A DNA stretch of 26,134 nucleotides from IMG/VR virus record IMGVR_UViG_3300017757_000126, positions 1 through 26,134 of that record. One strand, written 5' to 3'. Shown one piece after another: positions 1-22,984 of this stretch. Under the pieces are notes generated by a model. The model did not search any database. It was not told where the DNA came from and saw only the letters and a list, made by a program, of their open reading frames with translations. The number at the start of each line of letters is the position of its first letter. Within the stretch, counting starts at the first letter, position 1. Made by a program: the position numbers and the translations under genes. The DNA comes from a virus.

Positions 1-14
1 AATCAAGATTTTAA
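1..14 (+). CDS. 3' tip of an upstream gene (possible)
   Basis: Bases 12-14 form a TAA that overlaps the ATG of the next gene as TAATG. The same junction occurs at 7650-7654 and 13592-13596 in this window. Read in that frame, the preceding codons would be Ser-Arg-Phe-stop. Too little is present to say what the gene is, and the TAA could be chance. Confidence 0.3.
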
Positions 15-439: not shown

Positions 440-445
440 TAAAGT

Positions 446-976: not shown

Positions 977-977
977 A

Positions 978-985
978 TATTTATA
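978..985 (+). promoter_or_regulatory. TATTTATA intergenic box 1
   Basis: TATTTATA preceded by AA. It begins 1 base after the stop of the kinase gene, and 16 bases separate its 7-mer core from the ATG at 1001. It would open the block that runs to the terminase. Confidence 0.45.
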
Positions 986-1000
986 ATAAAATATACTATC

Positions 1001-1696
1001 ATGCAAGATAATTTTAGCGTCCGTAATTGGAAAAATAAAACCCTTTATAAAGAAGAATATTCTCCCGAAATAAATGTATACGGATACCAAACTGAACATT
1101 TTGATATGTGCCCAGGAGCAAAAGCTTTATTTAAAGGTATACTAGCAGGTGATTATACAGATGGTGTACCTTCGGCTAAAGAAGAAGCCTCTGTTATAGC
1201 AATGGCTAAACTTCATGATGCTTTATTTAATATGGAGAAAAAAGCTGAAGGATATGGTGAAGTAGATAGATCATATTTAACCCAAGCTGAAAGATTAGAA
1301 AAAGAAATATATATGCAAGCAAGAAATCTCGATTTAGAAGATGAAGTTAAAGCATATATCCCTGGCCACATAGATAGAATTGCAAATGTTGTAGTTAATC
1401 CTGCAGATGTATCTGAACAAGATGACTTAGAAGCAGATGACATTGAACTTGAAATCCCAGGCGACGAAAGTACAGCTACTGTAGATAAAACAGTTCAAGC
1501 TAAAGCATCTAAACAAGATAAAATTATAAAAGATTACCAACGTCTTAAAGATTTAATGCAAACTGAGCTTGATATGTATAAAAGCTTTGAAAGCCCCGAA
1601 AATAAAGAATTAGCTAAGGAAAGACTAAAAAAATTAACTCCGGAATTTCAGGCAGCTAAAAAAGAATACGAAAAATTAAAGGGTGTCAAAATCTAA
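1001..1696 (+). CDS. Unknown conserved-looking protein upstream of terminase
   Basis: A 231-aa protein I do not recognise with confidence. The N-terminal half (to about residue 130) looks globular, with a FDMCPGAKALF segment around residues 34-44 that seems like a conserved core, and helical Ala/Glu-rich stretches. Residues 138-158 are very acidic (DDLEADDIELEIPGDES), and the last 70 residues are Lys/Glu-rich and probably coiled coil. It is the first gene after an intergenic box, and its 3' end overlaps the next gene by 14 bases. Its place three genes before the large terminase would suit a terminase small subunit or another packaging or structural factor, but no motif shows this. T4 gp16 is shorter (164 aa). 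Confidence 0.7.
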   Translation: MQDNFSVRNWKNKTLYKEEYSPEINVYGYQTEHFDMCPGAKALFKGILAGDYTDGVPSAKEEASVIAMAKLHDALFNMEKKAEGYGEVDRSYLTQAERLEKEIYMQARNLDLEDEVKAYIPGHIDRIANVVVNPADVSEQDDLEADDIELEIPGDESTATVDKTVQAKASKQDKIIKDYQRLKDLMQTELDMYKSFESPENKELAKERLKKLTPEFQAAKKEYEKLKGVKI

Positions 1697-2039
1697 TATA
1701 CTAAATATAATTTTAGCAGTTGTAATTATCTCACTGCTGTATGTAGTATTTTTTACAGGAGATGAAGATTATACTCAAGAATATAATGCTAAAATAGAAG
1801 CATTAGAACAAAAAGTAGATTCTCTTCATCAAAAGAATACTGCTCTAGAATTTGAAGCGGATTCATTAGAATTTGCTATCGAAGAATCAGATAAAAAAAT
1901 AAATAAATTAAACACCAGAATTTATGTTATCAAAAAAGAAACAAAGGAACAGCTTAATGCTGTTGATCTTTTCGGTGATGATGAGCTGGAACAGTTTTTC
2001 GCAAAGCGTTACAGACAGCACACAGATTCAATTAACTAA
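1683..2039 (+). CDS. Small membrane-anchored coiled-coil protein (inner-spanin-like)
   Basis: A 118-aa protein that starts with GTG at 1683 inside the end of the previous gene. Residues 5-25 form one hydrophobic segment (NILNIILAVVIISLLYVVFF), followed by an acidic turn and a long heptad-rich helix (about residues 33-90, with ALEQKVDSLHQKN and similar). It ends in a distinct DDELEQFFAKRYRQ tail. An N-terminal anchor followed by a periplasmic coiled coil is the architecture of inner-membrane spanins (Rz). Its last 116 bases also encode the start of the next gene in another frame, as in Rz/Rz1. The function is inferred from architecture and overlap only. It could instead be another envelope protein, and no endolysin or holin is recognisable nearby. 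Confidence 0.65.
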   Translation: MSKSNILNIILAVVIISLLYVVFFTGDEDYTQEYNAKIEALEQKVDSLHQKNTALEFEADSLEFAIEESDKKINKLNTRIYVIKKETKEQLNAVDLFGDDELEQFFAKRYRQHTDSIN

Positions 2040-2349
2040 GCCGGTTGCTAAGTTAGTTATTAAAGATTTAATCCAATTTGATGGTCTATCCCAAGAAATG
2101 GAGACTATGCAGGTTATTCTTACAGAAACTAATAATAAATTAAACACACAAGGGGAATTAGTTTCAAATTTAAAAATACAGGTTCTAAATTATCAATCTA
2201 TTATTGAAAAAAAAGATCAACAATTTTCAACCCAAGAAGAATTAAGTAAAAGGTTACAACAGGACCTTAAAAAACAAAAAATTCGAACTAAATTAATGGG
2301 TGGTGCTGGTATTGCTATTGCTATAGCTGCAGCTGTTCTGATCAATTAA
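1924..2349 (+). CDS. Secreted coiled-coil protein with C-terminal membrane segment, overlapping the previous gene
   Basis: A 141-aa protein that starts inside the preceding gene in a different frame (116-base overlap). It begins with a classic signal peptide: a basic stretch (MLSKKKQR), a hydrophobic core (LMLLIFSVMM), and SWNSFSQ before a Ser, a cleavage-site style common in flavobacterial exported proteins. A coiled-coil body follows (about residues 45-120), then basic KKQKIRTK, then a C-terminal hydrophobic tail (GGAGIAIAIAAAVLI). Exported at one end and anchored at the other, it could span the periplasm like a unimolecular spanin, or pair with the upstream protein. No lipobox Cys is present, so it is not a standard outer-membrane lipoprotein. 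The start at 1924 is preferred over the ATG at 1957 because it supplies the basic n-region. The stop directly abuts the terminase ATG. Confidence 0.65.
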   Translation: MLSKKKQRNSLMLLIFSVMMSWNSFSQSVTDSTQIQLTKPVAKLVIKDLIQFDGLSQEMETMQVILTETNNKLNTQGELVSNLKIQVLNYQSIIEKKDQQFSTQEELSKRLQQDLKKQKIRTKLMGGAGIAIAIAAAVLIN

Positions 2350-3933
2350 ATGGCCGAGAATTTAAAAAGTATAATAAAAAGTGAATTTATAAAATGCGCT
2401 AAAGATCCAGTGTATTTTATGAAAAAATATTATACTATTCAACACCCACAACGGGGTAGAATTAAATTTAACCTATATCCTTTTCAAGAAAAAGTCCTCA
2501 TGCATATGCATAATGAGGATTATATTGTTATTAATAAATCTAGACAGTTAGGTATATCAACATTGTGTTCTGCATATGCTTTGTGGATGATGTTGTTTCA
2601 AAAAGATAGAAATGTACTGTGTATTGCAACTAAGCAAGAAACGGCTAAGAATATGGTAACTAAAGTACGATTTGCCTATGATCAATTACCATCATGGTTA
2701 AGAATAAAAACTGTTGAACACAATAAACTATCACTACGTCTAGCAAATGGATCACAAATTAAAGCCACAGCAGCAAGTTCAGATGCTGGTAGATCAGAAG
2801 CAGTATCTTTACTATTAATTGATGAGGCAGCTTTTATTGATGGAATTGATGAGATATTCGCTTCAGCACAACAAACACTAGCTACTGGTGGTGGATGTAT
2901 TGCTTTATCTACACCTTATGGTACGGGTAACTGGTTCCACTCAACATGGGTTAAAGCAGAAGCAAGAGAAAATACATTTTTACCAATTAGACTACCATGG
3001 ACTGTACATCCAGAGCGTGGTCAAGAATGGAGAGATGAACAAGACATTATATTAGGACCTAGAATGGCAGCACAGGAATGTGACTGTGATTTTAGCACTT
3101 CAGGAGATACAGTAATTGAACCTGATATATTAAATTTTTATGAAAAAACCTATCTACAAGAACCTGCTGAACGTAGGGGTGTAGATGGAAACTTGTGGGT
3201 ATGGCAAATTCCAGATTACTCTAGAGATTATATGGTAGTAGCTGATGTTGCTCGTGGAGATGGGAATGACTATTCTGCGTTTCATGTATTTGATATAGAA
3301 GAAGCAACACAAGTTGCTGAATATAAAGCACAAATCCAAACAAAAGATTACGGTAATTTATTATTTGCTATAGCTACTGAATATAATGATGCCCTACTAG
3401 TAGTAGAAAATGCTAACATTGGATGGGCTGTAATCCAACAATTAATTGATAGAGGATATAGAAATTTATATTACTCACCTAAAATGGATGTATCTATGAC
3501 TAATGCTGATCAATATCTTTCTAGATATGAAAATGGTCAAGGTATGGTTCCTGGATTTACAACATCAATGAAGACGAGACCACTTGTTGTCTCCAAATTA
3601 GTTTCGTATCTTCACGAAAAATCTGTAATATTTCGTTCAAAGCGTTTATTAGAAGAATTAAGAACATTTATATGGAAACATGGAAAAGCACAAGCACTAT
3701 CAGGATATAATGACGACTTAACTATGGCATTTGGTATATCTATGTTTTTAAGAGATACAGCTTTACACTTTAGACAACAAGGTGTAGATATGGCACGTGC
3801 TTCACTAGGAGGGATACACTCTACTAATTATAAAGCACCTAACATTTACCAAAGTGGTAATCAATTTAAAAATCCATACGAAATGGAAAACCCATATGGT
3901 GATAAGGAAGATATTTCCTGGTTATTGGGGTAA
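2350..3933 (+). CDS. 17: Terminase large subunit (gp17-like)
   Basis: A 527-aa DNA-packaging motor that pumps genome into proheads and cuts the concatemer. The N-terminal ATPase has a deviant Walker A at residues 63-71 (KSRQLGIST, like the SRQLGKT of T4 gp17), Walker B with catalytic Glu at LLLIDEAAF (about 155-162), and a coupling motif at STPYGTGNW (187-195). The C-terminal RNase H-like nuclease shows Asp299 in VADVARGDGNDYSAF, Glu353 in VVENANIGW and Asp455/456 in YNDDLTMAFG. Length and motif order fit the T4 family (gp17 has 610 aa). The ATG follows the previous stop with no gap. It is the last gene of its block and is followed by an intergenic box, then the portal gene. Confidence 0.97.
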   Translation: MAENLKSIIKSEFIKCAKDPVYFMKKYYTIQHPQRGRIKFNLYPFQEKVLMHMHNEDYIVINKSRQLGISTLCSAYALWMMLFQKDRNVLCIATKQETAKNMVTKVRFAYDQLPSWLRIKTVEHNKLSLRLANGSQIKATAASSDAGRSEAVSLLLIDEAAFIDGIDEIFASAQQTLATGGGCIALSTPYGTGNWFHSTWVKAEARENTFLPIRLPWTVHPERGQEWRDEQDIILGPRMAAQECDCDFSTSGDTVIEPDILNFYEKTYLQEPAERRGVDGNLWVWQIPDYSRDYMVVADVARGDGNDYSAFHVFDIEEATQVAEYKAQIQTKDYGNLLFAIATEYNDALLVVENANIGWAVIQQLIDRGYRNLYYSPKMDVSMTNADQYLSRYENGQGMVPGFTTSMKTRPLVVSKLVSYLHEKSVIFRSKRLLEELRTFIWKHGKAQALSGYNDDLTMAFGISMFLRDTALHFRQQGVDMARASLGGIHSTNYKAPNIYQSGNQFKNPYEMENPYGDKEDISWLLG

Positions 3934-5895: not shown

Positions 5896-5913
5896 ACTAG
5901 TAGCGCACTACTT

Positions 5914-6762
5914 ATGAAAATAAAACATAATAAATACAAGAACACTGGTATCTTGTTCGAACTGCTAGTACGTAAAATTACTGCAGACACACTCTCCAGT
6001 GGTAATTCTAAAGCAGCCACTTTAGTAAAAAAATACTTTACTAAAAGTGAACTTGCCAATGAGAATAAACTTTATCAGACAATAAATCAATCTATATCCT
6101 TATCAGAAGGTAAAGCTGAATCTGTACTATCTACAGTACTAGATTTATCTAGAAAATTAGATAAGGAAGCCCTATCAAAAGAAAAATACAATCTAATTCG
6201 CGAAATTAAAGAAAATTTCGACATGAATGATTTCTTTGGGGCTAAAATAAAAAATTATAAGCTATTAGCTTCAACATATGTTCTATTAGAATCACATACT
6301 AATAAAAAATTCGCTAATCCCGAATCAATTATTACATCTAAAATCACTATTCTAGAACATATTACTTCTAACCCAGATACTAAAATGTCTTTATCACCAT
6401 TAGTAGAAGAACTAATGTCGTTAGATAAAGGTACACGTGCGCTTACTTATAAAATTATGCTTGAAAAGTATAATGAAAAATTTGATGGGTTATCTAAAGA
6501 ACAAAAAGAAGTATTAAAAGAATATATAAATAGTGCTACGGATGCTCCTAAGCTTAAAGAATTTTTGAATTCTAAGTTCAAGAGTATATCTACTACGCTG
6601 AAAGAAAACGTAGATAAAATAGAGGAGCCGGCACTAAAAATTAAAATCCAAGAAGTTATAAACCTTATTTCTCCTATTCTAGAGACTAGAAAGTTAAAAG
6701 ATGATCATTTAGTTGCGCTACTACAATATCTTGACCTTTCTAATGAAATAGTGGCAGTATGA
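5914..6762 (+). CDS. Head-cluster protein of unknown function
   Basis: A 282-aa, mostly alpha-helical, Lys/Glu-rich protein. The N-terminus (KYKNTGILFELLVRKITADTL, broken here by its initial MKIKHN) looks like a conserved block. Further helices contain DFFGAKIKNYKLLASTYVLLE. It has no signal peptide or membrane segment. In T4 the genes between portal and protease (67 and 68) encode prohead core proteins. This gene has the same position but is longer than either, and I see no direct similarity. A prohead core or portal-linked assembly role is a positional inference. Its TGA overlaps the next ATG by 4 bases (ATGA), which suggests translational coupling. Confidence 0.75.
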   Translation: MKIKHNKYKNTGILFELLVRKITADTLSSGNSKAATLVKKYFTKSELANENKLYQTINQSISLSEGKAESVLSTVLDLSRKLDKEALSKEKYNLIREIKENFDMNDFFGAKIKNYKLLASTYVLLESHTNKKFANPESIITSKITILEHITSNPDTKMSLSPLVEELMSLDKGTRALTYKIMLEKYNEKFDGLSKEQKEVLKEYINSATDAPKLKEFLNSKFKSISTTLKENVDKIEEPALKIKIQEVINLISPILETRKLKDDHLVALLQYLDLSNEIVAV

Positions 6763-7652
6763 AATTAAAAATCAAAGGTTTAAAAAAAGAAATGAGCACC
6801 ACTGGAACTGGTGCTTCCTTTGCAGCTGGTGAAGGTGGGCAAATTGCTACACCTAAAGCATTTAAAATTCGCAAAGATGAAATCGGCGAACCCTTTGATA
6901 TCCCTAACCCTTCAATACCTAATAGAAAATCTAAATTTATAGATTACAAACAACTATTTGAAGACGCTATTGAAGAGTTATCTGAAAAAAAACAATTTAA
7001 CCCTGTAACAGATTTATCTAGTAGTCAGGCTGACGCTGGTTTAAATACAGGATATGATATGGATACTCAAGATGCAGCATCAGTATTAGAATTAGCTAAA
7101 TTTTCAAAGGGAGATTATAAAGTAGGAGATGTACAAACTGAAAAAGGAACTAAATATACTGTAACAAATATAGATTCTGAAACTGGAAGAATTTCTTGGG
7201 ATATAGAATATGTTCCTGCTTGGGATTCTGTTTATAAAGAATTTGACGATTTAAGAAAAGTAATTGCTCAATTAGATAAAAAAACTGACGATAAAGTAGT
7301 AGATGATATTGCTACTAATATTAAATCTGAATTTAATAAATATCGTACACATATTAGAAAAAATTACCCTGAAGCTTATAAAAAATTTACTATAAGTGAA
7401 GCTCGTTATAGCCAATTTAAAAAGAAATCACAATTCCGTACACCTACACAACAATTACATATGGCTGTACGCGAAATGAGACGTAAAATTGATGAAATGA
7501 GTAAAGTTGTTTCATTTACTGAAAGAATGCGTACCGAATTAAAAGCAAGTAACGAAGGCATGACATATTTAAATCGTACTCGTGAAGCTATTACTAAAAT
7601 AAACGAAAAATTACAAGACCTAAATAATAGAATTAAAGGTTTAACTGAATAA
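6759..7652 (+). CDS. Head-cluster protein with a TTGTGASF N-terminal motif, unknown function
   Basis: A 297-aa protein. After a basic start (MKLKIKGLKKEM), residues 13-20 read STTGTGASF-like and continue AAGEGGQIATPKAF. The major capsid protein has nearly the same string directly after its predicted protease cleavage point (residues 64-78). The middle (about 70-135) includes a small beta-rich part (GDVQTEKGTKYTVTNIDSETG). The C-terminal half is a long basic helical region with coiled-coil character (RKVIAQLDKK, MRRKIDEMSKVVSF, EKLQDLNNRI). It is coupled to both neighbours (ATGA before, TAATG after). Position and the shared motif suggest a prohead core or internal capsid component processed by the gp21-like protease, but this is inference. 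Confidence 0.75.
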   Translation: MKLKIKGLKKEMSTTGTGASFAAGEGGQIATPKAFKIRKDEIGEPFDIPNPSIPNRKSKFIDYKQLFEDAIEELSEKKQFNPVTDLSSSQADAGLNTGYDMDTQDAASVLELAKFSKGDYKVGDVQTEKGTKYTVTNIDSETGRISWDIEYVPAWDSVYKEFDDLRKVIAQLDKKTDDKVVDDIATNIKSEFNKYRTHIRKNYPEAYKKFTISEARYSQFKKKSQFRTPTQQLHMAVREMRRKIDEMSKVVSFTERMRTELKASNEGMTYLNRTREAITKINEKLQDLNNRIKGLTE

Positions 7653-7789
7653 TGGCAAAAGGAATTAATTTAGGCAATTACATGGAAAGGCCTAAAAAAA
7701 AGAGACCGGGTGTACATGCAAAAAGTAAAACATCCAAATTAAAAAATAGTAGAAATTACGTCAAGGCCTACAGAGGTCAAGGTAAATAA
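7652..7789 (+). CDS. 45-aa basic microprotein in the head cluster
   Basis: A small gene whose ATG overlaps the previous stop (TAATG) and whose TAA ends 12 bases before the next ATG. It encodes 45 residues: a short start (MAKGINLGNYMERP), then a strongly basic stretch with KKKRPGVHAKSK (about residues 15-26), SKLKNSRNY and a YRGQGK end. Lys/Arg make up roughly a third of the protein and there are no Cys. The KKRPGVHAK...NY...YRGQG pattern looks conserved rather than random, and I believe similar small proteins occur in other phages, but I cannot check this here. The exact fit between two genes on the same strand supports it being real. An RNA/DNA-binding or capsid-interior role is possible, as is a prohead core peptide like T4 gp67/68. 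Function unknown. Confidence 0.75.
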   Translation: MAKGINLGNYMERPKKKRPGVHAKSKTSKLKNSRNYVKAYRGQGK

Positions 7790-7790
7790 A

Positions 7791-7798
7791 TATTTATA
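7791..7798 (+). promoter_or_regulatory. TATTTATA intergenic box 4
   Basis: TATTTATA, one base after the microprotein stop, with only 4 bases between its 7-mer core and the ATG at 7802. It is part of the 12-bp palindrome ATAAATATTTAT (7786-7797). Bases 7784-7805 match 25264-25285 exactly. Confidence 0.45.
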
Positions 7799-7801
7799 TA
7801 C

Positions 7802-8701
7802 ATGACAACACAAGACTTATATACCAAATTATCAACTGGCGATATTACAGAACAAAAGTTTTTGTATGAAGTACGTCGTGATATCAACTTACCATTTATT
7901 ACCCCAATGAATAACTTTAAGGATACTGTAACTATCTTAAAGAATAAGGGTATAATCTCAGAAAAACAAACAAAATTATCTACAGGTAAGCAAGATGTAG
8001 AAATTATATCTAAAACCATTGATATGGTTAACCCATATGAATATTCTAAAGGTATGGATATTGAGCTTGGTGTCGAAAATGAAGCTGTTGGTAATGTAGA
8101 CATTACTGAAGAAGATATTAAAAAAGCACAAAAGAAAGTACTTAAAAATCTTACTAAAGAACCAAATTATTATTCTAAAAAGAATACAGCTACAATGGGT
8201 GATAGTGAATACCCCGTAGAGGTAAACGCTAAATCTATTGCTGCATTAGAAAAGCAAAAAGGTAAAATTATTCGTGAACACGGAGAAGATGCTGAAAGAG
8301 TAGCTGATGTAAATGCTAGTTCTACCATGTTAGAAACAGACGATATTGAAGAACTAGGTAGACTACGTGATTCTATCTACGAAAAATACGCTAAAAAATA
8401 TGGTGTAGATGTAAATGAACTTAAAGATAAAGTTGAAGCTAAAAAATTAGAAACGGAAGATGTAGATAAAACAACAAAATTAGCAATTGCGGATGAAATA
8501 GCTCAATGGAGAAAGGGAAATTTATCTAAAGAACAACTAAGAAAAAGCCTTATGGATTTAAGTGATGGAGAATTTCAATTAGATTCTATTAAAGGATTTA
8601 ATAATGAAACTATAGAAGCAATTGAGGTAGAAGATGAAGATACAGCTATTGCTGTTCAAAAGAAATCTCCTGATTCTGATGTTCGTATAGTAAAAAAGTA
8701 A
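7802..8701 (+). CDS. Unknown helical protein before the prohead protease
   Basis: A 299-aa acidic/Lys-rich protein that is mainly helical. Its N-terminus (TTQDLYTKLSTGDITEQKF followed by LYEVRRDINLPFITPMNNFKD) resembles a short recurring phage motif in which a helix with YEVRRD is followed by an N-F-x-D-T-V-x-I-L-K-N-K-G-I-I segment. The remainder has charged helices and ends in an acid patch (IEVEDEDTAIAV) and a basic tail. It has no signal peptide, membrane segment or catalytic motif. The protease gene begins one base after its stop, so the two are coupled. A prohead core or scaffold-associated role fits the position but is not shown. Confidence 0.7.
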   Translation: MTTQDLYTKLSTGDITEQKFLYEVRRDINLPFITPMNNFKDTVTILKNKGIISEKQTKLSTGKQDVEIISKTIDMVNPYEYSKGMDIELGVENEAVGNVDITEEDIKKAQKKVLKNLTKEPNYYSKKNTATMGDSEYPVEVNAKSIAALEKQKGKIIREHGEDAERVADVNASSTMLETDDIEELGRLRDSIYEKYAKKYGVDVNELKDKVEAKKLETEDVDKTTKLAIADEIAQWRKGNLSKEQLRKSLMDLSDGEFQLDSIKGFNNETIEAIEVEDEDTAIAVQKKSPDSDVRIVKK

Positions 8702-8702
8702 G

Positions 8703-9323
8703 ATGGCTCAAAAATTATTAATAGAATATTCCGTATTTACACCTAAAAACACCCAAATTACAGAGGGTATTGCTGGGTCTAAAAATATGATGGTTGAAGG
8801 TGTTGTTCAGCGTGCTGAAGAATTTAACCATAACGGAAGACGTTATCCATTTGAAATATTAAAAAGAGAAGTAGACAAATATATAGGTGGCCCTATTGCT
8901 GAAAATAGAGCATTAGGTGAATTAGATCACCCAGAATCATCTGTTATTAACCTAAAAAATGCTTCTCACAATATTAAAGAATTATATTGGGATGGAAACG
9001 ATTTAATGGGTAAAATTGAAGTTTTACCTACCCCATCAGGTAATATATTAAAAGAATTATTTAATAATAAAATTACTGTTGGTATTTCATCTCGTGGTAT
9101 GGGTTCTGTTAAACAGTTAGGTGAAGGTAGAGTAGAGGTAGACGATGATTTCGAATTATTGTGTTGGGATTTTGTATCTACACCTTCTACACATGGTGCT
9201 TTTATGAAACCTACTGGATTAAATGAAGGTAGAATACATAAAACAATTAACAAATATTCAAAACTTAACGAAATTATATCTGATATTATTTGCACACAAT
9301 CAGGTATTTGTTGTTTACGTTAA
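8703..9323 (+). CDS. 21: Prohead core protease (gp21-like)
   Basis: A 206-aa maturation protease of the herpesvirus-assemblin-like fold (T4 gp21, peptidase family U9/S80). It cuts scaffold and capsid N-termini once the prohead is built. Visible hallmarks are an RAEEFNHNGRRYP segment (about residues 37-49), the catalytic His76 in GELDHPE, and the nucleophile Ser129 or Ser130 in VGISSRGMG, followed by DFELLCWDFVSTPST (about 149-163). T4 gp21 has 212 aa, so this is full length. It lies directly before the scaffold and capsid genes, the T4 order 21-22-23. A 135-base AT-rich gap follows. Confidence 0.95.
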   Translation: MAQKLLIEYSVFTPKNTQITEGIAGSKNMMVEGVVQRAEEFNHNGRRYPFEILKREVDKYIGGPIAENRALGELDHPESSVINLKNASHNIKELYWDGNDLMGKIEVLPTPSGNILKELFNNKITVGISSRGMGSVKQLGEGRVEVDDDFELLCWDFVSTPSTHGAFMKPTGLNEGRIHKTINKYSKLNEIISDIICTQSGICCLR

Positions 9324-9458
9324 GGTATCCTCAATTTTTTACCCTCCCTATATATTTATCTACAGATAAGATAGATATTCCTAATAATATCTCACTCAGA
9401 TATATAAACTCTTATATTACTTCCCTTAATAAGTAATCCCGACAAAAATTTATTGAAA
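9324..9458 (+). promoter_or_regulatory. Hairpin-rich leader before the scaffold/capsid genes
   Basis: This 135-base gap is the longest in the window. It holds the box at 9353 and then several short inverted repeats: TTATCT/AGATAA (9356-9361 with 9364-9369, loop only 2), GATATT/AATATC (9374-9379 with 9386-9391), ATATAA/TTATAT (9402-9407 with 9412-9417), and a 7-bp stem ATTACTT/AAGTAAT (9416-9422 with 9431-9437, loop 8) that is mutually exclusive with the third. It may be a structured 5' leader for the strongly expressed scaffold-capsid message. Short AT stems can arise by chance, so confidence is low. Confidence 0.3.
9353..9359 (+). promoter_or_regulatory. TATTTAT intergenic box 5
   Basis: TATTTAT followed by C, 29 bases after the protease stop and 99 bases before the scaffold ATG. 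It is the weakest copy because the eighth base is C, not A or T. Confidence 0.35.
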
Positions 9459-10664
9459 ATGTCAAACACAAAGTTTTTCAACGATGCTATCGCTGAAGCT
9501 AAAGCAATCCGTGAGACTGCTCTTGCTAATGCCAAACTTGCTCTAGAAGAAGCTTTTACTCCACAAATTCAATCTATGTTAGAGAAAAAATTAGCTGAAG
9601 AAGCTGATGACATGGATGAAGCTAAAGATATGGACGAGGCGAAAGCCAAGGATATGGATGAAGCAAAAGATATGGACGAAGCTAAGAAAGATGTAGACGA
9701 GGCTAAGAAGGACATGGACGAAGCAAAATCCGATATGGATGAAGCTAAGGACATGGACGAAGCAAAAGAAGTTGACGAAGCCAAAGAGGTGGAGGAAGCT
9801 AAAGCTGACGTAGACGAAGCAAAAGTTGACGAGAAAAAAGACGTAGATGAAGCTAAAGTAGAAGAAGCATCTGTAGAGGAATCTGCAGTTGAAGAAGCTG
9901 CTGTAGAAGAAGCTGCTGTCGAAGAAGGATCAATTGAAGAAATTGATCTAGATGAACTACTTGCTGAACTAGAAGCCGCTGAAGAAGGCTATGGTAAAGA
10001 CAAGATGAAAGACGAAACTGTAGAAGAAGCACCTGTTGCTGAAGAGGCTCCCGTAGCTGAAGCAGAAATCGAAGAAGAAGCTCCCGTAGTGGAAGCTGAA
10101 GCTGACGATGAAGTAGGTGAAATCACAGTAGATGAGCTTAAAGACATTATCAAAGACGTCATGGCTGACGTACTTGGTGGTGGAGCTGAAGGCGGTGAAG
10201 ATATGGAAGTTGACGTAGATGGAGATGGTGACATGGATGTTGCTATTGACGCTGACGGAGACGGAGATATTGAAATCGATGAGATGAAAGATGATAAAGA
10301 AATGGATGAAGTTAAGGCTGAATTAAATGAAGCTGTAAACGTAATCAACACTTTAAAATCAGAACTCAACGAAGTTAATCTTCTAAACGCTAAGCTATTA
10401 TACGTGAACAAATTGTTCCGTAGCAAAACATTAACTGAAGCACAGAAAGTAAAAGTGATCAATGCATTTGATCGTGCTGAATCTGTGAAAGAAGTTAAAA
10501 ATATATTCGAAACAATTAAAGACACAACAACTAAAGCTAAAACGACAGTAAACGAATCTCGTTCATTTGCTTCTAAAGCTGCTGGTGTTGCTGAAACTAA
10601 ACAACCAATTGTTGAGAGTAATGATTTCGTAGCTAGAATGCAAAAGCTAGCCGGTATTATTTAA
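9459..10664 (+). CDS. 22: Acidic prohead scaffold (gp22-like) with DEAK repeats
   Basis: A 401-aa scaffold/core protein around which the capsid assembles and which the gp21-like protease later degrades. I chose the ATG at 9459, not the TTG at 9453, because MSNTKFFNDAI is a natural start. Residues 52-133 carry about a dozen near-copies of MDEAK/VDEAK spaced 6-8 residues apart, giving an extended charged helix. Residues 137-215 are a second low-complexity part (VEEAAVEEA, APVAEEAPVAEAE). Residues 252-258 and 264-270 are DVDGDGD and DADGDGD, which look like calcium-loop motifs. The C-terminal 120 residues (LNEVNLLNAKLLYVNKLFR, LTEAQKVKVINAFDRA, VKEVKNIFETI) form the part I recognise as T4-type gp22. 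It is larger than T4 gp22 (269 aa), mostly because of the repeats. The capsid gene follows 20 bases on. Confidence 0.88.
   Translation: MSNTKFFNDAIAEAKAIRETALANAKLALEEAFTPQIQSMLEKKLAEEADDMDEAKDMDEAKAKDMDEAKDMDEAKKDVDEAKKDMDEAKSDMDEAKDMDEAKEVDEAKEVEEAKADVDEAKVDEKKDVDEAKVEEASVEESAVEEAAVEEAAVEEGSIEEIDLDELLAELEAAEEGYGKDKMKDETVEEAPVAEEAPVAEAEIEEEAPVVEAEADDEVGEITVDELKDIIKDVMADVLGGGAEGGEDMEVDVDGDGDMDVAIDADGDGDIEIDEMKDDKEMDEVKAELNEAVNVINTLKSELNEVNLLNAKLLYVNKLFRSKTLTEAQKVKVINAFDRAESVKEVKNIFETIKDTTTKAKTTVNESRSFASKAAGVAETKQPIVESNDFVARMQKLAGII
9609..9857 (+). repeat. (M/V)DEAK-coding degenerate tandem repeat
   Basis: About twelve imperfect units, mostly 18-21 bases, coding for xDEAKx. Synonymous changes (gatgaagct, gacgaggcg, gacgaagca) keep the protein repeat while the DNA varies, which points to selection on the protein. 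Confidence 0.85.
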
Positions 10665-13189: not shown

Positions 13190-13594
13190 ATGGCAGCAGG
13201 AAAATATTCTTTTGTAATTGAAAAAGGAGCTACTACTGATTTCGAAATTCTTTATAAAGACGCATCTGGAACCCCTATTGATTTAAAAGATAATCAAGCT
13301 AGAATGCAATTAAGAGCAGAACAAACAGGATCTAGCGCTTTATATCTAACATTATCTAGTAGTTTAAATGATGATGGCACTGGTTTAAATATAAGTGGTT
13401 CAGGAGGTACTAACCCACCAGAATCAGGTTCAATAGGAATATTTATTTCTTATTTAACATCTTCTATATTAGATTTTGATAAAGCTTATTATGATTTAGA
13501 AATAGCATCAGGTAGTGGTATTAATACAAAAGTAACTCGTATCCTAGAAGGACAAGTACAAGTATCTAAAAATATCACTACAGGATCATTTTAA
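13190..13594 (+). CDS. Small beta-rich structural protein (baseplate/fibre-adaptor-like)
   Basis: A 134-aa protein, probably a beta-sandwich. The layout is EKGATTDFEILYKDASGTPIDL, then QARMQLRAE, a central strand series, then FDKAYYDLEIASG and RILEGQVQVSKNIT. This matches a common phage virion domain (BppU N-terminal-like) in which 'YDLEI ... RILEGxxxVS' closes the fold. Such domains link fibres to the tail or neck. The stop overlaps the start of the collagen-like fibre gene as TAATG, so the two are translationally coupled and probably interact. The role is inferred from the fold pattern and neighbour. Confidence 0.65.
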   Translation: MAAGKYSFVIEKGATTDFEILYKDASGTPIDLKDNQARMQLRAEQTGSSALYLTLSSSLNDDGTGLNISGSGGTNPPESGSIGIFISYLTSSILDFDKAYYDLEIASGSGINTKVTRILEGQVQVSKNITTGSF

Positions 13595-15282
13595 TGGCTA
13601 ATAAAGTCACTATAACACCTAATGCCAGTGATGTCAATCTACAGGCTACAAACAATCAAGTTATTGTTAATGGACAAGCTCTTGATCCAAATGCAGTAGG
13701 TGTTAATATAACTAATCAACAACTTGATCTTCAAACACCACCAGCCAATGAAATAGTAATAAATGAAGATACTAGAAATATTACTATTACTAATAATAAA
13801 ACTGGCACATCAGTAAATTTAACTCAAGAAACTTCTAGAGTAGTTAATATAACTACACCTGGCCCTAAAGGAGACCCAGGTGCTACAGGTACTTCGGGTT
13901 CATCTGGTAGTTCTGGAACATCAGGTATAATAGGACAAGATGGTACTTCTGGTACATCTGGTACATCAAGTACATCAGGTAGTTCTGGTACTGCAGGATC
14001 TTCAGGTTCTTCAGGAACATCAGGTTCTTCAGGTACATCTGGAATAGGAGAAGATGGCTCATCTGGTACATCTGGAAGTTCAGGTTCATCTGGTTCTTCT
14101 GGAAATACTGGTACTTCAGGTACATCTGGAGTACAAGGAGCAGCAGGTACATCAGGTACTTCAGGTTCATCTGGTACTTCTGGAGTACAAGGAGCAGCGG
14201 GTACATCAGGTACTTCAGGAAGCTCAGGTACATCAGGAACAGATGGTACATCAGGAACAGATGGTACCTCGGGAACAAATGGTTCTTCTGGGAGTTCAGG
14301 TAGCTCAGGTACTTCTGGGCAGGATGGAAATTTTGGAGGAGCTACTTTTGATTATACTTTCAATACAAATCCCACAGATTCAGACCCTGGTACTGGTAAA
14401 TTAAAATTAAATGAAAGTACCCAAAGAAATAGTACTCAAATTTATATAGATAACACAGATGATAATGGTAATAGTATAGTAGCTTTTTTACAAACAATAG
14501 ATGCTTCTACTTCTACAATAAAAGGTCATGTAAGAGTATCCAATAAATTAGATGCTGCACAATATCTTTTATTCCAAATTTCAGAATTAACATCTGCAGT
14601 AGGATATTATAAATTAGACCTTAATAATGTAGGTTACTCAGCATATTCTCCTTTTTCTCTTAATGAAGATATTATAGTATCTTTTGTAGTTACTGGTGAA
14701 AAAGGTGATACAGGAGCCGCAGGTACATCTGGTACATCTGGAAGTTCAGGTTCATCTGGTTCTTCTGGAAATACTGGTACTTCAGGTACATCAGGTACTT
14801 CTGCACTTCCAGCTACTACAGGTTCATTTACAGGATCTTTTACAGGTAGTATAGATGCTACTAATGATTTTACTTTTAGTGGTGAAGTACTTAATGTTAT
14901 AGGAGATGTATTTGTTCAAGGTACATTAGATGCAGCAACTAAAAATTTTAGAATAAACCACCCTCAAAAACCAGGATATTGGTTAATGCATTCCTCATTA
15001 GAAGGACCTGAAAGAGGTATTTATTATAGGGGTAAATTAAAAACATCTAATACTATATATTTACCCGATTATTGGGAAGATTTAACAGATGATATTGATA
15101 TTACAGTACAATTAACTCCTATAGGCAATGCTTGTGTACATTTTGTAGAATCAATTAATAAAAAAGAAGTTAAAATTGGATGTGATTGTGGAAAACCACA
15201 TTGTTTTTTTATAGTACATGCCCAAAGATATGATCAAGGTAAATTTGAAGTATTAAAACCTAAAATAAGTAAACCATTATAA
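13594..15282 (+). CDS. Collagen-like fibre protein (position of T4 wac)
   Basis: A 562-aa, probably trimeric, fibre. Residues 1-88 are a beta-rich N-terminal part. Residues 90-249 are Gly-X-Y triplets opening with GPKGDPG, after which X and Y are almost all Ser/Thr. Residues 250-367 form a globular beta domain (FDYTFNTNPTDSDPG...), and 368-403 are more triplets. A C-terminal domain (about 440-562) has FRINHPQKPGYWLMHSSLEG, ERGIYYRGK, a LPDYWEDL strand and FFIVHAQRY...FEV. This resembles a C-terminal domain I recall from phage structural proteins, with an added CDCGKPHC cysteine cluster (about residues 528-535). It lies directly before the gp13-like gene, where T4 has wac (fibritin, the whisker). 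It could be a neck whisker or a host-recognition fibre. Confidence 0.8.
   Translation: MANKVTITPNASDVNLQATNNQVIVNGQALDPNAVGVNITNQQLDLQTPPANEIVINEDTRNITITNNKTGTSVNLTQETSRVVNITTPGPKGDPGATGTSGSSGSSGTSGIIGQDGTSGTSGTSSTSGSSGTAGSSGSSGTSGSSGTSGIGEDGSSGTSGSSGSSGSSGNTGTSGTSGVQGAAGTSGTSGSSGTSGVQGAAGTSGTSGSSGTSGTDGTSGTDGTSGTNGSSGSSGSSGTSGQDGNFGGATFDYTFNTNPTDSDPGTGKLKLNESTQRNSTQIYIDNTDDNGNSIVAFLQTIDASTSTIKGHVRVSNKLDAAQYLLFQISELTSAVGYYKLDLNNVGYSAYSPFSLNEDIIVSFVVTGEKGDTGAAGTSGTSGSSGSSGSSGNTGTSGTSGTSALPATTGSFTGSFTGSIDATNDFTFSGEVLNVIGDVFVQGTLDAATKNFRINHPQKPGYWLMHSSLEGPERGIYYRGKLKTSNTIYLPDYWEDLTDDIDITVQLTPIGNACVHFVESINKKEVKIGCDCGKPHCFFIVHAQRYDQGKFEVLKPKISKPL
13861..14340 (+). repeat. Collagen-like Gly-(Ser/Thr)-Ser coding repeat, block A
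   Basis: About fifty 9-base units coding mostly GTS, GSS and a few GTD, GQD and GAA triplets. Two interruptions are visible: one Gly replaced by Ser in GTSSTSG, and a GIGED insertion. Proline is present only at the very start. Codons vary (ggt/gga, tca/tct/agt), so the array is old enough to have diverged. Confidence 0.9.
14060..14126 (+). repeat. 67-base direct repeat, copy 1
   Basis: Identical base for base to 14726-14792 in the same gene, offset 666 bases (in frame). It spans the triplets around the GNTGTSG unit. Exact identity amid otherwise diverged triplets points to recent duplication or gene conversion. Confidence 0.9.
14695..14802 (+). repeat. Collagen-like coding repeat, block B
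   Basis: Begins GEKGDTGAAG and continues as GTS/GSS triplets to GTSGTSA. It separates the middle globular domain from the C-terminal part of the fibre. Confidence 0.9.
14726..14792 (+). repeat. 67-base direct repeat, copy 2
   Basis: Second copy of the exact repeat at 14060-14126. It makes up most of block B, so the second collagen stalk may have been seeded by copying from the first. Confidence 0.9.
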
Positions 15283-17835: not shown

Positions 17836-18720
17836 ATGGCAACAATAAGTACTTCAGGAATAGCAAGTGGTAGTGTAATAGAACCTACTCACATATTAAG
17901 ACCCATTGAGGCATTGAATGGCGCAACAGGACCCTATGATGTTACTATATCTGGGTCAGTAAATGTATCTGGAAGTCTTAGGATTGCAACAGGTAGTATT
18001 ATAGAAAATAGCAACCATGCTGTAGTATTAGCATATAATACTTCTTCAGGAGATGTATACCATACTAATAGTACATCAGGTACATCTGGTTCTTCAGGGA
18101 CATCAGGTACAAACGGTACTTCAGGAACAAATGGTACATCTGGTACTTCTGGTAATAGTGGTACAAGTGGTTCATCAGGTAGTTCAGGTGCATCAGGTAC
18201 TAATGGTACATCTGGAACATCAGGTTCATCTGGTACTTCAGGTAGTAGTGGAAGTATTTTTGCAGGAACATCAAGTTCAGGTGCTACTATAGCAGTAGGA
18301 TCATTAACAATTACAGCAACTACAGGATTAGCCTATACAACTGGACAATCTATTTCAGTAACTAGTACTGCTAATAAAGCTAATTATATGGTTGGTAGAA
18401 TTACTTCATATAATATAGTAACAGGTCAACTTATAGTAGATGTAACTATTATAGGAGGTAGTGGAACATTCTCTAGTTGGAATACAAATTTAGAATCTAC
18501 TTTAAATATAGGTGGCTTCCCATATACTGGTTCTGCTCAAATTAGTGGGTCTTTAGTAGTAACAGGATCTATGTTTGTTACTGCTTCTAGTGTAATAAGT
18601 TTAGCTCCTTCAAACCCCTTACCAAGTGGTGTTAATTCTGGTTCTTTAGCTGTAACTGGATCTAATTTAGCCTTTTATGATGGTCACCAATGGAAAAAAG
18701 TAACTATTGGAAGTTTCTAG
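17836..18720 (+). CDS. Collagen-like fibre/appendage protein A
   Basis: A 294-aa protein. The N-terminus ATISTSGIASGS (after Met) is nearly identical to that of the protein at 21104, so both probably dock to the same site. SGS-type strand repeats follow (VTISGSVNVSGSLRIATGS, about residues 36-54), then a Gly-Thr/Ser-Ser triplet stalk (about 80-140), then a globular beta domain (GATIAVGSLTITATTGLAY...), and an end with AFYDGHQWKKVTIGSF. It has no S74 chaperone and is therefore shorter than its paralogue. The glycosyltransferase gene follows 33 bases on without an intervening box, so the two are probably co-transcribed and this protein is a natural candidate substrate. It ends in TAG, rare among the stops here. 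Confidence 0.75.
   Translation: MATISTSGIASGSVIEPTHILRPIEALNGATGPYDVTISGSVNVSGSLRIATGSIIENSNHAVVLAYNTSSGDVYHTNSTSGTSGSSGTSGTNGTSGTNGTSGTSGNSGTSGSSGSSGASGTNGTSGTSGSSGTSGSSGSIFAGTSSSGATIAVGSLTITATTGLAYTTGQSISVTSTANKANYMVGRITSYNIVTGQLIVDVTIIGGSGTFSSWNTNLESTLNIGGFPYTGSAQISGSLVVTGSMFVTASSVISLAPSNPLPSGVNSGSLAVTGSNLAFYDGHQWKKVTIGSF
18073..18255 (+). repeat. Collagen-like coding repeat in fibre A
   Basis: About twenty 9-base units coding GTS, GSS, GTN and GNS triplets, without Pro. It is in frame throughout. Confidence 0.9.
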
Positions 18721-18753: not shown

Positions 18754-21066
18754 ATGAAAATCCAAGCTCATACGAGTTTTATTGGCACAACAGGGTACGC
18801 TAACCATGCGCAATCATTTTTTACTGAGCTTGATAAATTAACTCCTGTTAAAGTAAGAAATTTTACAGTAGGTAAATCATGGCACGGTTCTAGTAATACT
18901 CCCCATAATAAAGAACCTTATATTACTCCGCAAATGAAAAAGATGCTTCATTTGCAAACATTATGGAATAATAATAATAATTCTAGAAATGATGTCCCCA
19001 TATATTCCCATAAAGATAGTTATTATGCTGATATTGATATTATATTAGAAGAGCATGATCATCATTATTTTTATGATGCTTATGATGGTTATACAATAGG
19101 GTATAATGTTTGGGAATCAACAGAGTATTCCCCACAATTTTTTCAACAATTACTTACTTTAAATGAACTTTGGGTACCAACTGAATGGCAAAAAGATATA
19201 TCCATTAAACAAGGATACCCAGAAAATAAAATATTTGTTATACCTGAAGGAGTAGATGGAAATATATTTAAACCACCATCTAGACCTAAAAAACAAGATA
19301 AATTTCAATTTATTATAGTGGGTAGATGGGATTATAGAAAAGGTATAAAAGAAAGTATAGAAGGTTTTCTCAAAGCATTCCCTAATAATCCAGATGTTGA
19401 ATTATTATTAACTGTAGAAAACCCATATCCTGTAGATGGTATGAATTCTACAGAAGAACGTTTAAAATATCATGGGTTAGAAGATGATAGAATTAAAATA
19501 TTAAAGTTTTTAGACAGAAAACAATATATTTCATTATTACAAAATGCTAATGTATTAATATCTTGTGCCCGTGCTGAAGGATGGAATTTACCTTTAATTG
19601 AATCACTAGCTTGTGGTACTCCCTCAATTTATACTAAATGTTCTGGTCAACTTGAATTTACTAAGGGTGAAGGGTTAGGAGTAGAAATATTAGGTGAAGA
19701 ACCTGCTACAAATAATCAAAATTTATCCTATGAACATAACATCCCAGGTAATTTTTATACTCCTAATTTAGAAGATTTAGTTAAAAAAATTAAAGATTCT
19801 TATAGTAATTATAATATTTGGAAAAAATGGCATTTAAAACGTTCTAAAGAAATAAGACAAGAATTTTCTTGGAAAAACCAAGCTAAAAAGGCATATAATC
19901 GTTTATTAGAAATTGAAATAACTCCTAAAAATAAAATTCCTAGATTAGAAGCAAATTTTGTAGATGGTCCGTATGCTTGTTTACGAGATGCGAATCAAGA
20001 ACATTTAGTAGATTTTATTAATCAAGATACAGGTAAAAGTGAATATCATGTTAGTTTAAAAAATAATCATTGGGGAAAATCTTTTCATAAATTTTTTATA
20101 AATTGGGATATACAAGTTAAAGACCAGAATGGAAAAATAGTTACATCCCACAAATATAATGCATCTAATAAACGTATTTATATATCTTTTGGTTCAAAAT
20201 CACTAGGTGATACATTAGCATGGTTTCCTTATGCTTTAGAATTTAAAAAGAAGCACAATTGTCATATTACTGTATCTACATTTTGGAATAAGTTTTTTCA
20301 AAGTAAATATCCTGAATTAGATTTTGTAGAACCTGGAAGTACTGTTCCTAATTTATATGCAATGTATGAGATAGGATGGTATTATGATAATGATACAAAT
20401 AACTTAGATGGTTTTAAACAACCCTATGATCCTAAACAATTTACTTTGCAACAAACTGCAACTAATATATTAGGATTAGAATATAAAGAAATTATTCCTA
20501 AAATAGATTATCAAATTAAGGATAAACCTATTAAAGAAAAATATGTTTGTATATCACCCCATGCTTCAGCAGGTGCAAAATATTGGCAACATCCTACTGG
20601 ATGGCAAGATATTATAGATTATTTAAATAACAAAGGTTATAAAGTAGTTCAAATATCAAAAGAAAAACATGATAATAGTTGGGAAAATAGAAAATTACCC
20701 CAAGGAAAACCTTTTAAAAATATAATTAATAAAACAGGTGATTTACCCATAGAAGAAATCATAAACTTAATTCACCATTCAGAATTATATATAGGTGTAT
20801 CTAGTGGGTTAGCTTGGTTATCTTGGGCAATTCAAAAACCTGTAGTAATGATTTCGGGATTTAGTTCAAGTTGGACTGAATTTACTACTAATATTCAACG
20901 CATTATTAATAAGGATGTTTGTAATTCTTGTTTTAATAATTTTAAATTAGATGCAGGAGATTGGGATTGGTGTACTGTACATAAAGATACTTCAAGACAA
21001 TTTGAGTGTACTAAGAAAATTTTACCTAAAACTGTAATAGAAGGCATTACTCGTAGCCTTAGTTAA
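18754..21066 (+). CDS. Two-domain glycosyltransferase: GT4 fused to Aah/TibC-type O-heptosyltransferase
   Basis: A 770-aa protein. Residues 1-390 are a GT-B, GT4-type transferase with GTTGYANHAQ near the start, VGRWDYRKG (189-197), and the EX7E element from Glu275 to Glu283 in AEGWNLPLIE. Residues about 400-770 match the bacterial autotransporter heptosyltransferase (Aah/TibC) family, which transfers heptose from ADP-heptose to Ser/Thr of autotransporters in the cytoplasm. Visible are an N-terminal beta part (PYACLRDAN...KFFINWDIQV), SLGDTLAWFPYALEF with Asp486 as the likely catalytic residue, YVCISPHASAGAKYW, GVSSGLAWLSWA, PVVMISGFSSSWTEF, and the four-cysteine iron-finger Cys723-x2-Cys726-x13-Cys740-x11-Cys752 before a RQFEC end. 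The gene lies between two Ser/Thr/Gly-rich fibre genes. I infer that it glycosylates phage fibres. Alternatives are modification of host surface sugars or host adhesins. Confidence 0.92.
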   Translation: MKIQAHTSFIGTTGYANHAQSFFTELDKLTPVKVRNFTVGKSWHGSSNTPHNKEPYITPQMKKMLHLQTLWNNNNNSRNDVPIYSHKDSYYADIDIILEEHDHHYFYDAYDGYTIGYNVWESTEYSPQFFQQLLTLNELWVPTEWQKDISIKQGYPENKIFVIPEGVDGNIFKPPSRPKKQDKFQFIIVGRWDYRKGIKESIEGFLKAFPNNPDVELLLTVENPYPVDGMNSTEERLKYHGLEDDRIKILKFLDRKQYISLLQNANVLISCARAEGWNLPLIESLACGTPSIYTKCSGQLEFTKGEGLGVEILGEEPATNNQNLSYEHNIPGNFYTPNLEDLVKKIKDSYSNYNIWKKWHLKRSKEIRQEFSWKNQAKKAYNRLLEIEITPKNKIPRLEANFVDGPYACLRDANQEHLVDFINQDTGKSEYHVSLKNNHWGKSFHKFFINWDIQVKDQNGKIVTSHKYNASNKRIYISFGSKSLGDTLAWFPYALEFKKKHNCHITVSTFWNKFFQSKYPELDFVEPGSTVPNLYAMYEIGWYYDNDTNNLDGFKQPYDPKQFTLQQTATNILGLEYKEIIPKIDYQIKDKPIKEKYVCISPHASAGAKYWQHPTGWQDIIDYLNNKGYKVVQISKEKHDNSWENRKLPQGKPFKNIINKTGDLPIEEIINLIHHSELYIGVSSGLAWLSWAIQKPVVMISGFSSSWTEFTTNIQRIINKDVCNSCFNNFKLDAGDWDWCTVHKDTSRQFECTKKILPKTVIEGITRSLS

Positions 21067-21103: not shown

Positions 21104-22984
21104 ATGGCTACAATTAGTACCTCAGGCATCGCAAGTGGAAGTATAATCCGTGCCGAACATGTTAATAGAATAATAAACTCTTTATCTTCAAAAGCAGATA
21201 ATGATATATTAATTTCGGGCTCTCTTGGAATTACAGGAAGCTTTGGTATTAATAGTGGTAGTATATCAGAAACTGATGGTGCTACTTTTCTTTTAGCTTA
21301 TGATACTGGCAGTGGTAATGTAACTTTCTCTGGAAGAGCTACTACATCAGGAACTTCAGGTACTTCAGGTTCATCAGGTAGTTCTGGTACTTCTGGTTCT
21401 TCAGGAACTTCAGGTACATCTGGTTCATCTGGTAGTTCGGGTTCATCAGGTACCTCAGGATCTTCAGGAACATCCGGTACAAATGGTACCTCTGGATCTT
21501 CAGGTACATCAGGAAATAGATTTAAAACTACATCTTCTACAAATTTACCAATTGAAACAGGAGCTGGAAAACAATTAACTATTGAAACTGGTTTATCATA
21601 TATAGCTGGTAACCATGTTATAGTTGTTGATGCTTCTAATGTTGCTAATTATATGACTGGCCCAGTTACTGCTTATAATAGTGGTAATGGTCTTTTAACT
21701 TTTAATAGTGTAGTAATAGGAGGATCAGGAACAAAAAGTAGTTGGAATGTAAATTTAACAGGAGAATACGGTACTGCTGGTACTTCTGGTTCAAGTGGAA
21801 CTTCTGGTTCTTCGGGATCAAGTGGCTCATCAGGTACATCTGGTTCTTCTGGAACTAGTGGTACTTCTGGTTCATCTGGTAGTTCAGGTACATCAGGTAC
21901 ACTTAACGCAACAGGTTCTCAAGCATTATCTGGTTCTTTAATAGTAACAGGTAGTGGTGGAAATGCCCTTAGAGTTAGTGGTAGTACAACATTAACAGGT
22001 AGTTTATTTGTTAGTGGAACAGTAAGCGGATCATTTATAGGAAATGGCTCTGGGTTAACCGGTATAGGAGCTTTCCCATTTACGGGATCTGGAACATTAT
22101 CCGGATCACTTATAGTAACTGGTAGCGGGGCAAATGCTCTTAAAGTTAGTGGTAGCACATCACTATCAGGAAGTTTACTACAAAGTGGTAGCACACAAAT
22201 TACAGGATCTAGTACAGTTTCTGGTTCATTGTTAGTAACGGGTAGTTCAGCTCTAGCAGTAAGAGTTAGTGGTAGCACAGCATTATCCGGAAGTTTATCA
22301 GTTAGTGGTAGTACAATATTATCGGGTAGTTTATTACAAAGTGGAAGTACAAGTATAACAGGTTCAACCGCAATTTCAGGTGCATTATTTGTATCAAGTA
22401 GTAATCTATTTGTTCCCGCATTAAGAGTTACTGGTAGTACAACATTGACAGGTAGTTTATTTGTAAGTGGTAGTACAACAATATCTGGAAGTGTTTTAAT
22501 TGCTACTTCTAGTATTGTTCAAAATAATAACCTTCCCGCTATACTTTCTTATAACACATCTTCGGGAATAATAGCCTATACTACAGGTAGTTTAGGTGGA
22601 GGTGGTGGTAGTGGAGGTCCATTTGTAGAAACTGGATCCTTTTATGCTACTTCAAATAATATCCAAATAACAGGATCATTAAGTGCTACTTCTATTACAG
22701 AAACCTCAGCATTAAGATATAAAAAGGATATTGAAGTTATGGATAGTCAATTAGATATTATCTATAGTTTAAGACCGGTTGATTTTACTTGGAAAGAAAG
22801 TAATGAAGAAGATAAAGGATTTATTGCTGAAGAAGTACAATTATTATACCCAGAATTTGTAACATTAAATGATGATGGTACTACTCAAGGTATAAAATAT
22901 AGTAAATTAGTATCTGTATTAGTTAAGAGTGTTCAAGAATTAAAAGATGAAATAGAGATACTTAAGACACAAGTAAATGGCTAA
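21104..22984 (+). CDS. Collagen-like fibre protein B with S74 chaperone end
   Basis: A 626-aa, probably trimeric, fibre. Its N-terminus is shared with fibre A (ATISTSGIASGS). Two Gly-Ser/Thr-Ser triplet stalks (about residues 81-137 and 223-266) flank a small beta domain similar to that of fibre A. About 270-470 is a long array of strand-like units of the form SGSLxVTGS, RVSGSTxLTGS and LLQSGSTxITGS, with an IGNGSGLTGI element. The end is an intramolecular chaperone of peptidase family S74, with Ser535 and Lys540 in SALRYKKD as the likely self-cleavage pair, then LRPVDFTWK, GFIAEEVQ and a C-terminal coiled coil (VQELKDEIEILK). S74 domains trimerise fibres and release themselves. Its 3' end overlaps the next gene by 8 bases. 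Confidence 0.88.
   Translation: MATISTSGIASGSIIRAEHVNRIINSLSSKADNDILISGSLGITGSFGINSGSISETDGATFLLAYDTGSGNVTFSGRATTSGTSGTSGSSGSSGTSGSSGTSGTSGSSGSSGSSGTSGSSGTSGTNGTSGSSGTSGNRFKTTSSTNLPIETGAGKQLTIETGLSYIAGNHVIVVDASNVANYMTGPVTAYNSGNGLLTFNSVVIGGSGTKSSWNVNLTGEYGTAGTSGSSGTSGSSGSSGSSGTSGSSGTSGTSGSSGSSGTSGTLNATGSQALSGSLIVTGSGGNALRVSGSTTLTGSLFVSGTVSGSFIGNGSGLTGIGAFPFTGSGTLSGSLIVTGSGANALKVSGSTSLSGSLLQSGSTQITGSSTVSGSLLVTGSSALAVRVSGSTALSGSLSVSGSTILSGSLLQSGSTSITGSTAISGALFVSSSNLFVPALRVTGSTTLTGSLFVSGSTTISGSVLIATSSIVQNNNLPAILSYNTSSGIIAYTTGSLGGGGGSGGPFVETGSFYATSNNIQITGSLSATSITETSALRYKKDIEVMDSQLDIIYSLRPVDFTWKESNEEDKGFIAEEVQLLYPEFVTLNDDGTTQGIKYSKLVSVLVKSVQELKDEIEILKTQVNG
21344..21513 (+). repeat. Collagen-like coding repeat in fibre B, stalk 1
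   Basis: About nineteen Gly-Ser/Thr-Ser triplets, without Pro and with one GTN, in frame. Confidence 0.9.
21770..21900 (+). repeat. Collagen-like coding repeat in fibre B, stalk 2
   Basis: About fourteen triplets starting GTAGTSGSSG and ending before TLNATGS, where the SGS strand repeats begin. Confidence 0.9.
21914..22500 (+). repeat. SGS/TGS strand-like coding repeat in fibre B
   Basis: Units of about 8-10 codons of the type S-G-S-L-x-V-T/S-G-S with alternating hydrophobic residues, as expected for stacked beta strands and tight turns. Some DNA segments recur nearly unchanged (gttagtggtagtacaac, ttactacaaagtgg). The same unit types occur in the last gene of the window. Confidence 0.85.
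22629..22682 (+). repeat. 54-base segment shared with the last fibre gene, copy 1
   Basis: Identical to 25905-25958. It codes for the linker just before the S74 chaperone (TGSFYATSNNIQITGSL). Confidence 0.92.

Follow-up and report, generated by a model that had tools for sequence, protein, structure and literature searches.

The closest described systems are the TibC/AAH bacterial autotransporter heptosyltransferases (BAHT; TIGR04414, O-heptosyltransferases for strand-loop-strand autotransporters; structures 4rap and 4rb4), in which a beta-barrel accompanies a GT-B catalytic fold with Asp, Lys and Trp active-site residues and a four-cysteine finger. TibC forms its ring through a beta-hairpin thumb, and its Arg286 contacts the adenine of ADP-heptose (PMC4358343). 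We investigated a gene at 18754..21066 in a 26,134-nucleotide stretch of viral DNA (positions 1 to 26,134 of IMG/VR virus record IMGVR_UViG_3300017757_000126; hereafter, the window), the product of which has the sequence signature, predicted fold, active-site residues and cysteines of this family. It differs from TibC/AAH in that a GT4 domain is fused in front, its partners are collagen-like proteins with no autotransporter among them, the thumb is replaced, Arg286 is exchanged for Ile, and the enzyme falls outside the TibC clade (support of 99 in the SH-like approximate likelihood-ratio test, SH-aLRT). We propose that this fused double glycosyltransferase probably O-glycosylates the phage's own collagen-like fibre stalks in the infected cell.

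There are partial precedents for such a modification. The mimivirus L230 hydroxylase/glucosyltransferase (PMC9614988) is likewise a viral enzyme that modifies a viral collagen-like protein, although it is a different enzyme, from a eukaryotic giant virus, and acts on lysine to give glucosyl-hydroxylysine. BclA of Bacillus spores (PMC8968730) is a collagen-like surface glycoprotein, albeit a bacterial spore protein with another repeat composition; threonine is frequent in bacterial collagen-like repeats such as those of BclA (PMC8968730). Glycosylation of fibre stalks is plausible because both of these are known. Mycobacteriophage glycosyltransferases are also thought to modify their own virion, but their targets, as given in the citing paper PMC12619734, are the C-termini of capsid and tail tube proteins. 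In the open-access literature, we found no paper linking BAHTs with phages or with collagen of the type described below.

A fusion enzyme between collagen-like fibres

The window is a fragment of a T4-like myophage genome, with genes for terminase, portal, prohead protease, major head protein, PhoH and a neck adaptor-like protein, and its source is an uncultured aquatic tailed phage. The enzyme gene comprises the following features:

18754..21066, + strand: GT4 - TibC/Aah-like (BAHT) fusion glycosyltransferase, 770 residues (open reading frame with ATG start, profiles, model)
18754..19923, + strand: GT4 (GT-B fold) domain, residues 1-390, with RWDYRKG and EX7E (profiles, 3oy2 superposition)
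19939..21063, + strand: BAHT domain, residues 396-770, N-terminal beta-barrel and GT-B catalytic domain (TIGR04414, 4rb4_B)
20209..20211, + strand: Asp486, counterpart of the TibC catalytic base Asp110 (alignment)
20659..20733, + strand: segment replacing the TibC beta-hairpin thumb, boundaries approximate (alignment, model)
20758..20760, + strand: Ile669 at the TibC Arg286 position (alignment; role of the TibC residue from PMC4358343)
20920..21009, + strand: iron-finger cysteines C723, C726, C740 and C752, corresponding to TibC C339, C342, C358 and C370 (alignment)

The C-terminal half matches TIGR04414 (hepto_Aah_TibC) over residues 416-766 with 318.9 bits (E=3.9e-95, far beyond chance), well above the curated NCBIfam cut-off of 200 bits, and the TibC sequence of 4rap matches the enzyme at E=2.8e-57. 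An earlier note made from the DNA alone had listed a set of Aah/TibC signatures in this half, every one of which is in place: SLGDTLAWFPYALEF at residues 483-497, including Asp486; GVSSGLAWLSWA at 681-692; PVVMISGFSSSWTEF at 696-710; and the spacing C723-x2-C726-x13-C740-x11-C752, with RQFEC at 748-752. The TibC catalytic residues Asp110, Lys230 and Trp305 correspond to D486, K609 and W688, which are invariant in all aligned rows, and the four iron-finger cysteines, present by sequence, are retained in nearly all of them. In an AlphaFold model built from 60 family sequences (predicted local distance difference test 88.5), residues 395-770 superpose on TibC residues 21-388 (4rb4_B; Z 37.8, 2.9 Å, 359 aligned residues), beta-barrel included. 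The note had also read the N-terminal half as a GT4 domain fused ahead of the TibC-like one, and this assignment holds: RWDYRKG lies at 191-197 and EX7E at 275-283 (E275-E283), PF00534 matches at E=2.4e-13, the PHROG glycosyltransferase family phrog_2170 covers residues 7-382 (E=3.5e-40), and the predicted GT-B fold of residues 1-389 superposes on 3oy2, a viral GT4-fold enzyme (Z 33.5).

The gene is flanked by fibre genes carrying stalks of the form (Gly-Thr/Ser-Ser)n, termed GTS below and collagen-like as judged by their sequence:

17836..18720, + strand: upstream fibre, 294 residues, collagen-like GTS stalk, likely acceptor (PF01391)
18079..18249, + strand: GTS stalk of the upstream fibre, residues 82-138 (repeat pattern)
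21104..22984, + strand: downstream fibre, 626 residues, likely acceptor (PF01391, Peptidase_S74)
21350..21511, + strand: GTS stalk 1 of the downstream fibre, residues 83-136 (repeat pattern)
21770..21895, + strand: GTS stalk 2 of the downstream fibre, residues 223-264 (repeat pattern)
13594..15282, + strand: third collagen-like fibre, 562 residues, possible acceptor (PF01391, repeat pattern)

All three exceed the Pfam Collagen (PF01391) threshold of 27.2 bits, with 36.1 bits for the upstream, 48.8 for the downstream and 91.2 for the third fibre, whose GTS runs fall between residues 96-241 and 374-403. The two flanking reading frames are rich in Ser, Thr and Gly (S+T 35%); the downstream fibre has an N-terminus in common with the upstream one, SGS strand repeats and a C-terminal Peptidase_S74 chaperone domain. 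Together, the three fibres contain 97 Gly-X-Y triplets in runs of at least four, with Thr/Ser at X in 89 and Ser/Thr at Y in 87. The repeats are written with varying synonymous codons, so it is their protein pattern that is preserved.

As to the acceptors, the note had named the flanking fibres, citing both their SGS strand repeats and their GTS stalks. The tie to Ser/Thr-rich fibres recurs in samples not chosen for it, as described below, and the GTS stalk stands as the candidate repeat. The SGS repeat does not: strand-loop-strand repeats were rejected as acceptors, with no match of the NCBIfam models for such repeats in the window fibres. Profile scans identified no autotransporter among the domains of the window.

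In the mechanism that we envisage, fibre chains would be made in the cytoplasm and modified before virion assembly. On the GTS stalks of the two flanking fibres, Ser/Thr residues would receive a first sugar from the BAHT domain, and the GT4 domain would probably extend it with a second one; in relatives with a fused FkbM-type methyltransferase a methyl group could cap the glycan, which would probably stabilise, stiffen or shield the stalks. GTS stalks carry hydroxyls at positions where collagens usually carry proline. If this proposal is correct, receptor-binding fibres carry a sugar coat that is invisible in sequence and may affect stability and host recognition, and at least one class of fibre-region glycosyltransferases decorates the phage's own fibres, not host lipopolysaccharide (LPS).

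Co-occurrence of enzyme and GTS repeats in viruses and bacteria

A scan of viral contigs identified relatives in at least 183, from which 79 distinct loci were kept, most matching over nearly full length. Close relatives (group A, identity of at least 68%) have fibres on both sides of the enzyme gene, and in group B (identity about 42%) the gene commonly lies between the neck genes and those for tail sheath and tube. GTS runs were present in 11/11 close-relative contigs searched and in 24/37 fusion contigs overall, many of the latter being short fragments.

In the reverse direction, we selected viral contigs solely by a (G-T/S-S)4 DNA pattern and scanned them for TIGR04414, bearing in mind that such contigs are fragments, that the samples are modest and that related contigs are not independent. 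The enzyme was found in 26 of 50 GTS-pattern contigs, including 9 of the 11 longer than 90 kb, as against 0/38 contigs selected by a Gly-Pro-X pattern (Fisher 9e-9). That control pattern is palindromic and favours GC-rich contigs, and for this reason two further samples were added. Among contigs selected by a neutral 16-mer, the enzyme was in 0/24 (Fisher 3e-6 against the GTS set); of 23 contigs that have one tail tube in common, 13 encode the enzyme, 9 of them with GTS repeats, whereas none of the 10 without the enzyme has such repeats (Fisher p=0.0016).

Among 50,697 GenBank phage records, four matched the enzyme; one belongs to Microcystis phage Mel-JY01 and the other three, of 636-735 kb, to uncultured phages. 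In Mel-JY01, a cultured cyanobacterial phage (PP395634.1), GTS reading frames lie about 2 kb or less from a GT4-BAHT-FkbM fusion, in GTS-rich regions at 2-3052 and 9152-9986, one frame exceeding 1000 residues; the enzyme-stalk pair is thus carried by a cultured phage and open to direct test. In the deposited annotation, a hypothetical gene on the minus strand covers the long GTS frame of the plus strand, and the second GTS region extends over two overlapping frames; there may be errors of annotation or assembly here. In LR756501.1 (735 kb), from a very large uncultured phage, 144 GTS pattern matches are spread over separate loci, including 103-123, 257-263 and 400-405 kb, which suggests that it encodes many collagen-like fibres.

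The association extends to bacteria. In eight genomes of 2-9 Mb (Gammaproteobacteria and one Schekmanbacteria metagenome-assembled genome), every GTS run, with one exception, is found within about 7 kb of a gene for a stand-alone BAHT. The GTS reading frames are mostly 112-226 residues long; the majority begin with a lipobox-like sequence and end in a GTS tail, and in the lipoproteins beside the BAHT this tail is the sole Ser/Thr-rich part. GTS runs were not found in the other BAHT genomes, two Burkholderiaceae excepted; in one of these, provided that BAHT and runs are on a single contig, they are more than 200 kb apart. A cassette of divergent GTS-tailed lipoprotein-like genes, a gene of about 280 codons and a stand-alone BAHT recurs in three of the bacterial loci (L168, L169 and L170, about 5900-9100).

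Some phage GT-B glycosyltransferases are known to act on DNA, and in a T4-like phage the enzyme could instead glycosylate modified DNA bases, in the manner of the T4-type DNA glucosyltransferases. We consider this highly improbable: the gene is located among late structural genes, its product has a TibC-type domain, and its stand-alone relatives adjoin genes for bacterial lipoproteins. A search of the window fragment, which was not exhaustive, recognised no base-hypermodification gene.

Departures from TibC and the sugar donor

The window enzyme has 29 residues at the thumb position, unrelated in sequence to the 25 of TibC and forming no hairpin in the model; the thumb that TibC uses for its dodecamer (Phe265/Val266) is absent. 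The thumb is 25 residues long in 14/16 other bacterial BAHTs and only 16 in 8/8 rows of bacterial GTS type and 19/20 of group B; group A and the majority of stand-alone phage enzymes have 27-29 residues of unrelated sequence instead. The predicted structure of the bacterial L169 enzyme nonetheless superposes on TibC (Z 40.7, 1.9 Å over 356 residues). With the thumb deleted or replaced, a TibC-like 12-mer is doubtful. Where TibC has the adenine-contacting Arg286, the window enzyme has Ile669; Arg is retained at this position in bacteria, including 16/16 other bacterial BAHTs, compared with 0/7 group-A and 0/20 group-B fusions. Given both changes, these enzymes may not work as a ring assembled about a folded beta-helix, and their donor may differ from that of TibC. 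In a quick tree of 88 domains, with SH-aLRT as the sole support measure, TibC groups with Acetobacteraceae and Selenomonadaceae enzymes (99), and the phage and GTS-lipoprotein enzymes stand apart with weaker support (91).

Heptose transfer, as in the note's term heptosyltransferase, is accordingly not established: besides the Arg286 to Ile669 change, the ADP-heptose synthase model TIGR02199 exceeds its cut-off in just 1/30 phage records. The window itself begins with a cytidylyltransferase-like gene (14-439), followed by an AAA_28/NadR-kinase-like gene (446-976). The former was rejected as a source of ADP-heptose, its best NCBIfam match being rfaE_dom_II with 54 bits against a cut-off of 181.5, and so was a phage ADP-heptose pathway, a comparably weak rfaE-type match occurring also in a record without a BAHT enzyme; the two genes may instead form a split pair for nucleotide salvage and not serve ADP-heptose synthesis.

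A wider proposal, to which we give an even chance, is that the mostly thumbless BAHT clade is a dedicated prokaryotic collagen O-glycosylation system, recognising (Gly-Thr/Ser-Ser)n chains in the fibres of phages (including those above 500 kb) and in bacterial lipoproteins, in which glycosylated hydroxyls stabilise a proline-free stalk and enzyme and substrate repeat travel together. Stalk glycosylation as proposed above would, if correct, also point to what a large TibC-like clade, with no reported function that we could find, acts on, and would explain the stability of proline-free collagen-like stalks.

Other candidate acceptors and variant loci

Several points weigh against stalk glycosylation. 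It is inferred, no glycan having been observed, and co-occurrence is association, not proof of an enzyme-substrate pair. Two of the controls are unlike the GTS set in composition or size, and a tree of the shared-tail contigs reduces that comparison to just four independent pairs (p ~0.25), of which two to four agree with the link and none contradict it. In the GenBank phage LR756504, a BAHT is encoded but the GTS pattern has no match. Finally, many group-B fusions have no GTS reading frame in the flank and are encoded directly upstream of sheath and tube, so these proteins could be acceptors.

Indeed, in many distinct group-B loci the enzyme gene directly precedes an 83-residue gene, tail sheath and tail tube, and glycosylation of mycobacteriophage capsid and tail tube has been reported (Freeman 2023, as cited in PMC12619734). 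The enzyme might therefore act mainly on other virion proteins (sheath, tube or SGS beta-repeats), the GTS link being a by-product of lineage. This seems unlikely to us, as contigs with the same sheath and tube but no enzyme have no GTS, and the bacterial relatives lack tail genes and adjoin lipoproteins that are Ser/Thr-rich in their GTS tails alone.

Group-B loci also hold several further glycosyltransferases, epimerases and methyltransferases, and the catalytic fold of the C-terminal half is common to LPS heptosyltransferases, both of which could fit an enzyme that alters the host surface (LPS or another glycan) and blocks superinfection. In SAR11 myophages (pelagimyophages), the structural region is described as containing tail fibres, collagen repeats and glycosyltransferases, with an island beside gp14; for the glycosyltransferases of the fibre/host-recognition island such a role was proposed, the enzymes being read as O-chain modifiers (PMC7029224). 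However, the domain, with its beta-barrel and iron finger, is of the TibC-type, protein-modifying class, not that of WaaC/WaaF/WaaQ, and a role in LPS modification gives no reason to expect (G-T/S-S)n proteins alongside the enzyme in viruses or bacteria; we judge a host-surface role improbable and favour modification of the fibre stalks.

The architecture of the enzyme varies among relatives. Stand-alone BAHT genes (about 400 residues) occur at the same genomic place as the fusions and are closer to the C-terminal half of the window enzyme (mean identity 45%) than group B is (38.5%), so the domains appear to have been shuffled. Among nine further BAHT proteins scanned, a GT4-type domain accompanies the BAHT in eight and an FkbM methyltransferase in two. 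Two group-B loci (L080 and L076) show other gene orders. In L014, a contig that shares 99.9% identity with the window over 14 kb, a premature stop at about residue 487-488, within the BAHT half, splits the fusion enzyme at 6848-9160; the sole nearby change is one T-to-G substitution that creates the stop, not slippage, and phase variation was rejected. In another locus (L131), the GT4 half is divided over two reading frames.
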